This document shows, in pieces, positions 40,127 to 46,150 of a stretch of DNA of 46,150 nt. Under the pieces are notes generated by a model, which ran no database searches, was not told the origin of the DNA, and saw only the letters and a list, made by a program, of their open reading frames with translations. The position numbers were made by a program, and so were the translations under genes. Positions within the stretch are counted from its first letter, which is position 1; each line of letters starts with the position of its first letter. The stretch comes from Bacillota bacterium (GTDB lineage: Bacteria; Bacillota_I; Bacilli_A; Erysipelotrichales; Erysipelotrichaceae), in NCBI GenBank assembly GCA_029097145.1, contig JAQXNC010000033.1, positions 1-46,150 on the forward strand, given 5' to 3'.

Positions 40127-40137
40127 TCAATCATCAA

Positions 40138-40821
40138 TTAGTCAGCTAATACTTTTACACCAGGACCCATTGTTGAAGATAATACGATATTTAAAATATA
40201 ATTACCTTTAACAGCAGCTGGTCTAGCCTTAGCGATTGCACCGTATAAAGCTTTGTAGTTTTCAACTAAAGCTTCATCAGTAAATGATTTCTTACCAATT
40301 AAGCAGTTGATATTACCTTCTTTATCAACACGGTATTCAATCTTACCTTTTTTGATTTCGTTAACAGCGTTAGCTACATTCATTGTAACTGTACCTGTCT
40401 TAGGATTTGGCATTAAGCCCTTAGGACCTAAAATCTTACCTAATTTACCAAGTTCACCCATCATGTCTGGTGTAGCTACGATTACATCGAAATCGAACCA
40501 ACCCTTCTTGATATCTTCAAGAATTTCTTTACCACCAACATAATCAGCGCCTGCATTCTTAGCTTCTTCTTCCTTGGCACCCTGAGTTACTACTAATACC
40601 TTCTGAGAACGACCTGTTCCGTTAGGAAGTACCATAGCACCACGAATCTGCTGATCAGCATGTCTTGGGTCTACATTTAAGTTAAATGAAACTTCGATAG
40701 ATTCATCAAATTTTGCAGTAGCGTTTTCCTTAACTAACTTAACTGCTTCACTCACTGAGTACTGTTTACCCTTTTCAATCTTTGAAAGTGAGTTCATATA
40801 ATTCTTACCATGTTTTGCCAT
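40138..40821 (-). CDS. rplA: 50S ribosomal protein L1
   Basis: [16 protein letters not shown]. Confidence 0.98.
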
Positions 40822-40827
40822 TGTCTA

Positions 40828-41250
40828 TTATTCCTCACCTTCTACAGTAATACCCATGTTACGAGCAGTACCTGCTACAATTCTCATTGCAGCTTCAACG
40901 TCATTAGCGTTTAAGTCTGGCATCTTGTATTCAGCAATTTCTCTTAGCTGATCCTTAGTGATAGAACCAACCTTCTTAGTCTTTGCACTACCAGAACCTT
41001 TAGACACCTTAGCAGCCTTTAATAATAAATTAGCAGCTGGAGTTGTCTTTAATACGAAATCAAATGACTTGTCTTCGTATGCAGTAATAATTACAGGAAC
41101 TACATCACCTTTTCTGTCTTTAGTCGCATCATTAAATGCTGAACAGAACTGAGGCATGTTGATACCTGCTGAAGCCAGAGCTGGTCCAGGTCTTGCACCA
41201 CCGGCTTCGAACTGAAGTTTACAAACTTTTGCAACTTTTTTCTTTGCCAT
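40828..41250 (-). CDS. rplK: 50S ribosomal protein L11
   Basis: [31 protein letters not shown]. Confidence 0.98.
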
Positions 41251-41345
41251 AATTTTCCTCCTATATGGTTACGTGGTTATTATTGAAGTAGTTGCACTTC
41301 TCCCGCGTGCTTAGATATTTTACACTATAATCCATTCTTATGCAA
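41251..41345 (-). promoter_or_regulatory. rplK promoter and structured leader
   Basis: Minus strand TTGCAT-17-TAAAAT (41317-41345); leader hairpin GAAGT-gcaact-ACTTC (41285-41300) downstream of CGCGGGA. Confidence 0.55.
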
Positions 41346-41355
41346 CGAAAATCGT

Positions 41356-44310
41356 CTATTTATCGCTATTTTTCGCAATACTCCAGTAAATACTGTTAAC
41401 TGTATCGATAGCTTCGTTATTTTCAATAGATTTTAGAGCTCTGTCATAAATTTCTTTATGACATTTTCTGACATCTATACTATCAAGTAACAACCTTAAA
41501 TCATTAATGGTTGCCAAGGCACGATTACCATAGATATGTAATTTTTCAAGATGTATACCTTTGATAAATCTTCCTCTTTGATAGATATGCCTGTTATCTT
41601 TTATCTCCCTATAGTCAATTCCATTTTCACTGATATAAAGCACATCATCGAAGTCAGCTCTAATAATATCGTAGATACCCTCAAGATCGATTACTTTAAG
41701 ATTATCTTCACAATATACTTTCTTTCCATAAGCGAGGTTGCCTTTATCTGCATCAACTTTCTTTTCATAACGACATTCATCAAGGACATTACTCATAATC
41801 TTTCGATATTCATCATCCTTAACTGCTTCTATTTGGTATTGTTTATCATCAAGTACCCATTTAAAGTATCTTCTGGCATATTTTGAAGCGTCATCAAAGT
41901 CTTCTTCATGATTAAAATATAGGATATAGTTTTCCTTATAGACATCAATCAGAAGTCCCTCATAAGTCCTGAAGGCATAATCAATCAAAGAACCTTCAAT
42001 ACTGCCCCATGTGGTTATCAGAGATTTGGCATTCATTATAAAACTATCAACTGTAAAATCATCAAAATTCTTTCCAAGATCACTGGCATTTTTAATCCAG
42101 TCACCCACAAGATATATCCTGTTTGTCTTTAAGACACCATTTAAAATATCAAATATCTTTAAGAAATCTTCTTTTGAATATCTGCCTTCATTCACTTCAT
42201 TATAGCGAAGGCTCATATAATCACATACCAGCTGTCTTGATATCTCACTTAAATCATAACGATATCCTTCAACATCCTTTAATTCATCATAATATTTAAA
42301 TAATAATCGAAGACTCTCATACAAATCGCTATATGGATAATGGATAAAACTGTAATTCTTATGTTTTACGACATTACTGGTCCTGATATCGATAACCTGA
42401 TCAATCATCCTGACCCCAAGTGCGTAGTTATTCTCCTTAATCATCTTAAAAGCCTGATATATATCATCATTAATCATGCCATAGCGATTATTAAGATATT
42501 CCTTCATCCATTTATCTGTATCTTCAATATCTTCAAAGATCAAATCAAAAAGCAGACTGTAGACCATCGGATTATCATATGTCGCCTCTGATATCATACC
42601 AATACCACACATGTATTGGTATGTTTTGGCTTCTTTTATCAGTCTCACCATTTCATCAAGCTGACCATTCATTGAAGGATTGCCCCCGAAATTACCCAAA
42701 AGAGCCCATACCCAAGCCGTATGATTAAATTCAGTATCTTCTAGTCTTGTATCATAGTATTCTGTTTTCTGATATGCAAGATTACTGCCAAGTGGATAAC
42801 TGATAAGATCAATTATCAAGGCATGTTCATTCTTAAGCTCTCCCATTCCTTTTAAAAGTTCGTTAGTTGGATTTGACCACCAGGACTGAATTACCCATAT
42901 CGCATCTTTGCGATACTTCAACATCGATGATAATACTTCCCTTGATATCACTTCATCACTTAGACCTTCTTCACGAATACCGCCTTCATGGAATGGATCA
43001 ACCGCAAAGAATCGACTTGTATCACCAAAGATATATCTTTGAGCTTCATAGAAAGCCTCAGCCATATCATCATAATCTTTTGAATCGCTCATAATCATTG
43101 AAGGACGATTAAAACCATTCCAGATGCCCTGTCCTTTAACTCTGATATCTTTCATATGGTTATTAAAATCAGTCGGTACCATTCCTGCATAGCCCTGAAA
43201 AACAGTCTCAATCCCTAAGGCACGACGATATCTTTGAATCCTGCGCCCCATTTCAACCCGACTTTGAATATAGTGATCATTAAGTGGTCCACCAAAGACT
43301 TCCATATTATCCATAAGCTGCCATGCATTATATGCTGGACCAACCAGAAAATCCTTAGCTTCTTTATATGTATATTTATAATTCATTAAAAACTTAATCC
43401 AGACCGCTTCTTCACCTGCAAGATCGAGTACGACATTAATCCCATTTAAAGCCAGATAATCATTTTCTTCAAGCCATCTATCATAGGATACAAAGGCAAA
43501 AGTATAGCTCAATGTACAATAATTTAAGGCATAGCGTATTTTAAAGTCTGTCTTTTTCCTGATAGTCTCACCAATTCCTACAAACTCTTTGACATCAACC
43601 TTTCGGGCATTTTCACTGATACTAACACCCAGATAGTGTTTATAGTAATAGTTAAGACCCGATGTAAGACATACACCCTTATTACCTCTGATATGAATTC
43701 TTTTATTCCTGTCACTTAATTCAAAAAAATCTTCACTGGTATTTTCAAGCTCAAAACTGAACCATTCACGATACTCTTTGCCAATGGTTCTGTCAATTAC
43801 GCCATAAACTGTTTCATATACTTCATCATCACCGATATCTCTTGCATAAATACTTTCATCAAAGTCTTCGATACCTGTGATCTTGAAGAAATCTCGCTCC
43901 TCATATTTATCAGTATTATTATTTAACTTATCTCCATAAACAGCGATATTCTTAAGATAAGCCTTTTCACAAGTATCATTATATTCAATATAGACTCGAA
44001 CAAAGCGATACTCTATATCCTTAAATTCAATCCTATCCTTACTGTATTTTTTCTGGTCACTGTGACTCTTATATATTCTTGTGAAATCTACTCCATCTTT
44101 ACTTCCATAAAGGGTATAGTAAAAAGCCATGCCATCCATAAATTCAAGAGATATTTCTTTTATCCTGTAATTATCAAGCAGATCAACTTCTATATAACTT
44201 GGAAAAAAGATTCCTTCCCAGTATGTATCATCTTTTCCATCGACTGCTCTATAGGCATTTGTATTATTGAGATTACTTCTGACAGGTTTATTTAATGCGA
44301 TATTTTCCAT
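41356..44310 (-). CDS. Alpha-N-acetylglucosaminidase-like glycoside hydrolase (GH89-like) with N-terminal F5/8 type C domain
   Basis: NIALNKPVRSNLNNTNAYRAVDGKDDTYWEG discoidin-like start; GH89-like RYALNYCTLSYTFAFVSYDRWLEENDYLALNGINVVLDLAGEEAVW and FFAVDPFHEGG. Confidence 0.83.
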   Translation of the reverse strand: MENIALNKPVRSNLNNTNAYRAVDGKDDTYWEGIFFPSYIEVDLLDNYRIKEISLEFMDGMAFYYTLYGSKDGVDFTRIYKSHSDQKKYSKDRIEFKDIEYRFVRVYIEYNDTCEKAYLKNIAVYGDKLNNNTDKYEERDFFKITGIEDFDESIYARDIGDDEVYETVYGVIDRTIGKEYREWFSFELENTSEDFFELSDRNKRIHIRGNKGVCLTSGLNYYYKHYLGVSISENARKVDVKEFVGIGETIRKKTDFKIRYALNYCTLSYTFAFVSYDRWLEENDYLALNGINVVLDLAGEEAVWIKFLMNYKYTYKEAKDFLVGPAYNAWQLMDNMEVFGGPLNDHYIQSRVEMGRRIQRYRRALGIETVFQGYAGMVPTDFNNHMKDIRVKGQGIWNGFNRPSMIMSDSKDYDDMAEAFYEAQRYIFGDTSRFFAVDPFHEGGIREEGLSDEVISREVLSSMLKYRKDAIWVIQSWWSNPTNELLKGMGELKNEHALIIDLISYPLGSNLAYQKTEYYDTRLEDTEFNHTAWVWALLGNFGGNPSMNGQLDEMVRLIKEAKTYQYMCGIGMISEATYDNPMVYSLLFDLIFEDIEDTDKWMKEYLNNRYGMINDDIYQAFKMIKENNYALGVRMIDQVIDIRTSNVVKHKNYSFIHYPYSDLYESLRLLFKYYDELKDVEGYRYDLSEISRQLVCDYMSLRYNEVNEGRYSKEDFLKIFDILNGVLKTNRIYLVGDWIKNASDLGKNFDDFTVDSFIMNAKSLITTWGSIEGSLIDYAFRTYEGLLIDVYKENYILYFNHEEDFDDASKYARRYFKWVLDDKQYQIEAVKDDEYRKIMSNVLDECRYEKKVDADKGNLAYGKKVYCEDNLKVIDLEGIYDIIRADFDDVLYISENGIDYREIKDNRHIYQRGRFIKGIHLEKLHIYGNRALATINDLRLLLDSIDVRKCHKEIYDRALKSIENNEAIDTVNSIYWSIAKNSDK

Positions 44311-44486
44311 AACTCAATTGTACCCCAAATAACAGCCATAAAAATTAGATAATATAAATCAAGTAGTATTTTGAATATTTTTAGAAAATTATTGTTTTGT
44401 TCATTAGGGTACTATTAAAAGACGATATATATGATCGTGTATAAAGATAAATTGATTATATTTTATGATTACCTTAATGATATAAT

Positions 44487-45710
44487 CTAATTGTATATAT
44501 ACAATTCGCCTGTTTTGGACATACCGTAAATTATAGTCAGTAATTTACGACATGCGGCGATTTTGGCAACTTTCGGTTTTAATGGGACAGATTGTTGCCT
44601 TTTTCTTTGATAGAAGTTATATATATGATCATTTCTCTTTAGCCTTAAATTGCAGCCAACAGCTAAGTATAATAAACATCTTAAATACTTATTACCTTTC
44701 TTTGATATCGATAAGTGAATGCCATCATATTTACCTGATTGCCTAATCATTGGATCGATGCCTGCGTATGAAGTAAATTTATTAACGCTATCAAATCTTG
44801 ATATGTTGCCAATCTCAGCTACTAATCTTGCGGCTATATTCTCACCTATTCCAGGTATAGATAATAACTGAACATATAAAGACTCATCTTTAGCTTCATT
44901 AATGATATTCTCTAATATTTCATTAGCTTCATTATCAATTTCTTCAATATGTATTATTAATGATTTTATCTTATCGACAATAACACTATCTTTATCGCAT
45001 CCTGAATATACTTCATTAGCCCATTCCCTTATTTTAGATACATGCTTGATGATAAAACCTCTATTATGTTTAGTTTTACTTTTAAGATATTTGATCATAC
45101 TTTCTTCTTTAGTTTTAATAATTAAATCTGGATGAGGATATTTCTTTAATATCTCGATAGATAAAGGATTATAGATATCTTCTTTAGGAAAACATGTATC
45201 ATAATCTGGCATTGCGATATCAAGGTAAGATCTAAGCGTGACTTTATATTTTCTTAAATGTATTAATACATCTTCATAATAACGATTAAGCCTTTGAAGC
45301 TTTTCATATTTAGATATAGGCGACTTGTATTTATTTAATCTTTCACTCTTAGAACCATAAAATACTTTAGCGATATTAGTACAATCTAATGGATCGGTCT
45401 TATTAGAATGCAATTCTGTTTGACGATACTTAGCTGATAATAATGGAGAAATAATATAATACTCTAAGTCATTATCATCTAAATATTTCTTTAATACTTC
45501 ATGATATACACCTGTAGCTTCGAATACATAAGATACATTATCATCATTAGCTTTGGCCTTTAATTTAGAAACATAATCTTCTAACTCTTTAAATGATGAT
45601 TTAGTGAACTTTAAAATTCTTGGTTTAGTAAATGATGTATCTTGGTCAATAAATCCTTGATAATGACAACTACCCTTAGATACATCAAATGAAACAATCG
45701 TGCCTTTCAT
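44487..45710 (-). mobile_element. IS110-family transposase/recombinase (DEDD N-terminal and Transposase_20 C-terminal domains)
   Basis: FDVSKG, FEATGVYHEVL, HSNKTDPLDCTNIA, LSIPGIGENIAARLVAEIGNISRFDSVNKFTSYAGIDPMIRQSGKYDG; element ends not determined. Confidence 0.93.
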
Positions 45711-45842
45711 TAATCTTAATTCCTTTCATAATCAACTGATAGCTTAATTACTTCCTATAATTCATCATTATCTATTTTCGTGTTAGATACAGTATCACTA
45801 TTATATTCATAGGTACTATTTAGATATAAACAGATTTTAAAT

Positions 45843-45922
45843 GAAAAAAAGGAAGTAGAGTGATTTTTATGACAAAGTCATGTATTACTACAGCTTTTAA
45901 AAGAGCTTCACTCTTGCTATCC
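45843..45922 (-). ncRNA. Candidate structured RNA upstream of the IS110 recombinase (possible bridge RNA segment)
   Basis: Closing stem AGAGTGA/TCACTCT (45857-45863 with 45908-45914) enclosing ATGAC-aaa-GTCAT (45869-45881) and AGCTTTTAAAAGAGCT; T7 at the minus-strand 3' side. Confidence 0.45.
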
Positions 45923-45952
45923 TTTAGATTCTCTCATACTACGCAATATAAG

Positions 45953-46001
45953 AAAACCAGATGATAATCATGATAGCTAATCATAATATTCATCTGGTTT
46001 T
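45953..46001. terminator. Terminator-like long hairpin, both strands
   Basis: AAAACCAGATGA ... TCATCTGGTTTT. Confidence 0.65.
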
Positions 46002-46009
46002 ATAATACG

Positions 46010-46034
46010 AAAAAGATATCTCAGATGAGATATC
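46010..46034 (-). terminator. Terminator of the gene entering from the right edge
   Basis: GATATCTCA-GA-TGAGATATC, T5 on the minus strand, overlapping the stop codon. Confidence 0.85.
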
Positions 46035-46149
46035 AGTCATATGATATGCCATTTTTGATAAGTAATGGTTTGATTATCTTAAGGAAGATAATAATCAGAA
46101 TGATTTCAAAAGGCAGCAATGTAATATTTTTAATAAAACTCTTTACAAG
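46033..46149 (-). CDS. C-terminal fragment of a membrane protein (possibly an ECF-type S component), truncated by the window edge
   Basis: Frame reads LVKSFIKNITLLPFEIILIIIFLKIIKPLLIKNGISYD-stop, followed at once by a terminator; absent from the ORF track. Confidence 0.6.
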   Translation of the reverse strand, partial: LVKSFIKNITLLPFEIILIIIFLKIIKPLLIKNGISYD

Positions 46150-46150
46150 A

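Follow-up and report, generated by a model that had tools for sequence, protein, structure and literature searches.

The DNA analysed here (the window) is a stretch of 46,150 nt, contig JAQXNC010000033.1 of assembly GCA_029097145.1 from a member of the Erysipelotrichaceae, and is referred to as contig C33 in the assembly comparisons below. Near its right-hand end, on the minus strand, it carries what is, by its sequence, a complete IS110-group insertion element (44344-46009; 1666 bp without the target core dinucleotide), in the order left end (LE), candidate bridge RNA region, intact recombinase gene and right end (RE). The recombinase gene (44487-45710, minus strand, ATG at 45710) codes for a protein of 407 aa that matches PF01548 (3e-21), PF02371 (1e-23) and NF033542 (184.7 bits, cut-off 140), and has the N-terminal DEDD RuvC-like domain and C-terminal Tnp domain with a conserved serine that are characteristic of the IS110 family. 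The LE is non-coding and extends over exactly 299 bp (45711-46009), from the start codon to a terminator-like hairpin beginning at 46010, close to the 300 bp given in a preliminary description of this DNA, where the region was proposed as a bridge-RNA locus. The RE (44344-44486, minus strand) is 143 bp long, ends in TTGATTTATATTATCTAAT, and is bordered by a copy of the TT core at 44342-44343. A search of Rfam with 44200-46150 gave no match, even at E<=5.

The element was compared with relatives in about 27 genomes, whose recombinases are 33–73% identical to that of the window; these belong to the same family, order and class as the window's host, and include Solobacterium, Holdemania, Holdemanella biformis, Sharpea azabuensis, Kandleria vitulina and Breznakia. 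An alignment-based scan of the genome contigs gave 71 loci, whereas a single-protein scan of the same contigs gave none, and the best recombinase relatives in plasmid and phage collections were only about 30% identical. Residues D9, E64, D106, D109 and S325 are invariant in 13 relatives, in agreement with the earlier view that the DEDD and serine motifs are intact. The last four align with E60, D102, D105 and S241 among the catalytic residues of IS621 (D11, E60, D102, D105 and S241; PMC11208158), and D9 was equated with D11 by its N-terminal position only. At the LE, relatives begin with CGTATTAT or CTATTAT and variants of these, and at the RE they end in TTATCTAAT and variants; since these ends are common to the relatives and the flanks outside them differ, the element could be fixed at 44344-46009. 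The segment in question, 45843-45922, thus lies inside it, the LE starting at 46009. Long terminal inverted repeats are absent from the window element and its relatives, and insertion is sequence-specific and oriented, with the LE always sitting after a T-run. One relative (L091, G223:C14) has a second copy of the RE directly after the first, which suggests a tandem or partial insertion beside an existing copy.

The region 45711-46009 is strongly structured: it folds with z = -5.6 relative to dinucleotide shuffles (299 nt; 0/200 shuffles as stable), and its part 45840-45930 with z = -3.0 (1/200). Three elements follow one another on the minus strand. The first is a 5' stem-loop, AAAACCAGATGA..TCATCTGGTTTT (45953-46001), seen in the window fold and as a hairpin at the same place in relatives. 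Next is a putative target-binding loop (TBL, 45857-45914), closed by AGAGTGA (45908-45914) and TCACTCT (45857-45863); RNAalifold recovered this stem unaided from 32 relatives, with compensatory changes in 11 of 12 predicted pairs. This is the hairpin noted in the preliminary description, which placed two inner hairpins within it; the comparison retains the closing stem and gives a single apical stem (45874-45897, AAAGC..CTTT with an inner TGTA-GTAA-TACA, supported by RNAalifold and pair counts) between two unpaired guide strands that face each other. The minimum free energy fold of the single sequence was also considered as the structure, and was dropped for the comparative arrangement. The third element, which the preliminary description missed although the coordinates it gave were right, is a second covarying stem-loop adjoining the start codon, the putative donor-binding loop (DBL, 45746-45856). 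Its outer stem pairs 45838-45856 with 45746-45767 (-17.4 for own arms against -11.8, standard deviation (sd) 0.5, for shuffled ones; 0/2000), and an inner stem within 45791-45817 is supported by pair counts. Taken together, the TBL and DBL stems have 86% of cells paired, compared with 69% when shuffled and at most 42% when slid, with compensatory changes in 16 of 17 pairs. Two smaller features in the preliminary description fared less well. The proposed GGA/TCC flank is weakly supported (11/2000 shuffles), and the conserved partner of ACTTCC is instead GGAAGT near the start codon, in the DBL stem. The run of seven T is present (45844-45850, minus strand), but it falls in the DBL outer stem, on the side left unpaired; relatives do not conserve it, and it does not terminate the bridge RNA.

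Both loops carry stretches that correspond to DNA at the insertion site or at the element ends. In the TBL, the left target guide AGCTCTTTT (45899-45907) matches the left flank ATATCTTTT at 7 of 9 positions, and the right target guide CATAAAAA (45864-45871) is the complement of the right flank TTTTTATG at 8 of 8. Across the set, with flanks exchanged between elements as the control, left guides match their own left flanks over 7.54 nt (5.47, sd 0.19, after exchange) and right guides their own right flanks over 7.30 nt (5.33, sd 0.24), neither value being reached in 2000 shuffles. Controls using the wrong side were flat (713/2000 and 1713/2000). The matches persist when one copy per genome is used (0/5000) and within one close group (14/5000 and 31/5000), and five elements fetched later showed left-guide matches of 8, 9, 5, 10 and 9 nt, three of the five being at terminators.

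In the DBL, the left donor guide TATATCTAAAT (45818-45828) corresponds to the RE end TATTATCTAAT, and the right donor guide ACACGAAAATAG (45772-45783) is the complement of the core plus LE, TTTTCGT; each co-varies with its end (0/2000 shuffles in both cases). In most relatives the left donor guide and RE change together, with TCTAA, TCCAA, TCGAA, TCAAG, TCGGA or AACTAAT found in both, and one element (G111a) departs from this on the RE side. For the right donor guide, ACGAAAA occurs with CGTAT in the LE, AGAAAA with CTATT in the LE, and CGAG in the sole relative with a CT core. The circle junction of IS621 rebuilds a promoter (PMC11208160, PMC11208158) and, as a sequence motif, the RE-core-LE junction does so here: joining RE, TT and LE puts a predicted -35 box, TTGATT (44357-44362, minus strand), at a spacing of 17 nt from a predicted -10 box, TATTAT (46002-46007, minus strand), and the arrangement TTGAYT-16/17-TATTAT is found in all 33 copies that have both ends.

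The guide-flank matches, guide-end matches, covarying stems and junction promoter together argue that an IS110-group bridge RNA is encoded in the 299 bp that precede the recombinase gene, and we hold this, with the cycle that follows, with high confidence. The recombinase would excise the element as a circle, and the sigma-70 promoter rebuilt at the RE-core-LE junction (TTGATT-17-TATTAT) would drive a transcript carrying, in order, the 5' stem-loop, TBL, DBL and recombinase. The DBL would pair with the RE/LE circle junction (..ATCTAAT-TT-CGTAT..), and the TBL with the 3' arm and T-tract of a chromosomal terminator, the left guide through ..TCTTTT and the right guide through CATAAAAA on TTTTTATG. 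Strand exchange at the common TT core would then place the element, in a fixed orientation, immediately after a terminator hairpin that remains intact. Circle formation, expression and binding of the RNA, and the chemistry of strand exchange are carried over in this scheme from IS621; the boundaries, both guide pairs, the covarying stems, the preference of the clade for terminators, the promoter motif at the junction, and the presence of both a second copy and an empty allele are read from the sequences themselves. The proposal of a bridge-RNA locus at this position is thus well supported, and the covariation and loop complementarity suggested as checks on it are both evident.

In several relatives (L047 in G033, L074 in G069, and L197-L203), the 5' hairpin and the TBL are separated by an additional stem-loop of some 90 nt. 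This contains a motif similar to CTCGTAAAAA, which recalls the TBL on its right-guide side, and it is possibly a third loop. The window element and its nearest relative (G178) lack it, their LEs being 299 and 292 bp long compared with up to about 455 bp in the others.

The left target of the window element is an intrinsic terminator, GATATCTCATCTGAGATATCTTTTT (46010-46034, minus strand), with the form GATATCTC-ATCT-GAGATATC-TTTTT. It was entered after the fifth T, the core TT being 46010-46011, and the corresponding empty site is found in contigs C62 and C103. If a terminator is taken to be a hairpin with a stability of at least -8 kcal/mol that leads straight into the invaded T-run, about 80% of the distinct insertion sites (31 of 39) qualify. 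The figure for nearby T-runs is 38 of 400 (9.5%; p 3e-21), and for non-coding T-runs 51 of 376 (13.6%; p 1e-17). The target terminators differ from one another, and the guides differ with them: the left guide spells the 3' arm and U-tract of its terminator, as in G111b (GTGCGGTTTTTT, 12/12), at a site downstream of a tRNA-like gene (identified by eye). In G033 (TAGTCATTT) and G069 (GGTAGTCA), where the targets are different, the guides are too (9 nt each). These elements probably represent an IS110 clade, centred on the Erysipelotrichales, that has specialized on intrinsic terminators as a genome-wide, gene-sparing landing pad, in which guides are almost constant over the U-tract, and differ between copies and species over the hairpin arm and in the right guide so as to suit individual terminators, with occasional escapes that include a relative at a CRISPR repeat. 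What the element would gain from terminators is that they are numerous and intergenic, and that the hairpin is kept after insertion.

The escape just mentioned, L202 (G388:C120), sits inside an apparent CRISPR array, whose repeat, GTTTCAATCCTTGTTTTAATGGATCATGCACTTCAAC, occurs around positions 950-1035 and 2815-2910 in the locus. In this repeat the left guide of L202 matches ATCCTTGTTT over 10 nt and the right guide complements TTTTAATGG, so that, on its sequence, it is apparently a bridge recombinase aimed at a CRISPR repeat.

A link with terminators could also arise if the bridge RNA were real and its guides needed a T-run only, with the intergenic insertions being those that survive. Terminators are indeed intergenic, the T-run is the constant part of the guide, and some sites (L198, G203 and G073d) have T-runs without a strong hairpin. 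Such survival may account for part of the enrichment, but as the whole explanation we consider it unlikely, because non-coding T-runs are terminators far less often than are the insertion sites, because the five guide nucleotides before the T-run match the hairpin arm (3.11 compared with 1.73, sd 0.19, when shuffled; 0/2000), and because other IS110 lineages, which are often gene-adjacent too, meet strong hairpins at only 1 of 20 sites. Much less probable still is that the structured region is a mere 5' leader or attenuator of the recombinase, with sites chosen by a preference of the protein for T-runs. The region does lie as a 5' leader against the start codon, and T-runs are nearly universal at the sites, but a leader would not match the flanks and ends of its own element better than those of others, and the relatives with other targets (G033, G069 and L202) would not be expected to carry correspondingly different guides. 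That the element is of IS1111 type, with a long RE that contains the guide RNA and with subterminal inverted repeats, can be set aside with near certainty, since although IS1111 and IS110 share the same DEDD/serine recombinase type (PMC11187229), so that the protein alone cannot exclude it, the RE here is 143 bp, all four guides lie in the 299 bp LE, and a long LE with a short RE is the IS110 pattern (PMC11208160).

Several observations weigh against the bridge RNA and its terminator targeting as set out above. The left guide of the window element, with 7 of 9 matches and a longest run of 6, fits its site no better than several foreign sites, and is in register at the C59 site (a second copy, described below) and shifted by one T at the C103 site; for this copy the argument therefore depends on the right guide, the donor guides and the family. 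Any single match counts for little, given the A-rich right guides and the repetitive T-tracts; it is the set that carries the support, and within it the relatives are phylogenetically linked and the within-group test is small. Eight of the 39 sites are not strong terminators, and in the genome of the host itself the predicted target string, taken exactly, shows no enrichment (4 occurrences, and 4 in the reversed control). Lastly, the window appears to join the flanks of two copies of the element (loci L039, L040 and L041).

Contigs C33 and C62 both run into the same 141 bp start of C103, and branch exactly at 46009/46010. As the flanks C62 and C103 are adjacent in the sister genomes G004 and G006, the C62-C103 junction represents the empty site, which is ancestral in the sister genomes. 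Contig C59 carries a second LE of the same element at another terminator, along with proteins read by eye as NusG and SecE, and window positions 40128-41312 (a gene for an L1-type ribosomal protein, with the gene upstream of it) adjoin the C59-type nusG in sister genomes (rplK/nusG synteny). The right half of the locus (RE, followed by an alpha-N-acetylglucosaminidase (NAGLU) gene, ribosomal protein genes, rpoB and rpoC) probably derives from the nusG copy, and 46010-46150 (141 bp) from the C62/C103 copy, the assembler having fused the two within the repeat, although the copies may instead have recombined. That one assembly contains both a second copy and an empty allele suggests that the element is active, as the preliminary description had thought possible, although it is not proof. 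The NAGLU gene (41356-44310), which specifies a 984 aa protein with an F5/8 type C domain, has the inferred nusG copy on one side and the ribosomal protein genes on the other. It has no DNA match in the other eight genomes of the genus and, lying within a conserved operon, is a probable insertion into it.

If this reading holds, a recombinase whose guide RNA recognizes terminators by their 3' arm and U-tract would have abundant sites, would leave the hairpin and T-run in place, and could spread widely with few broken genes. The strategy is apparently undescribed: no report of terminator targeting by IS110 elements was found in the literature searched, which did not extend to subscription journals or preprints. 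The roughly 40 copies with known targets form a separate, naturally diverse collection of bridge RNAs from outside the IS621 lineage, point to bridge recombinases with T-rich cores, and make the co-evolution of guides with a diffuse target class testable.

Other IS110 lineages of the same order (L106-L125; G041, G037 and G014), with recombinases about 28–31% identical, are likewise multicopy and show oriented insertion at a recurrent feature, which differs from that described here: 13 of the 20 insertions are at the complement of a start codon and Shine-Dalgarno sequence (CAT..CTCCT). Such sites are similar to the target reported for IS900. The seekRNA elements, ISEc21 (IS110-type) and those of IS1111, are similar in that an element-encoded RNA has two target-matching stretches and targets are particular to an element or close group, although terminator targets are not reported for them, and the ISEc21 seekRNA is about 74 nt, compared with two full loops over about 170 nt here (PMC11187229). 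IS621 is distant (it was found by profile, E 3e-19); its recombinase is shorter (328 aa, compared with 407 aa), its core is CT, compared with TT here (CT in one relative), and its targets are repetitive extragenic palindromes (REP) rather than terminators. The two systems nevertheless share a long LE, a 5' stem-loop followed by the TBL and then the DBL, the order of left and right target guides before left and right donor guides (PMC11208160, PMC11208158), guides that include the 2 nt core, a promoter rebuilt at the circle junction, and DEDD and serine residues that align.
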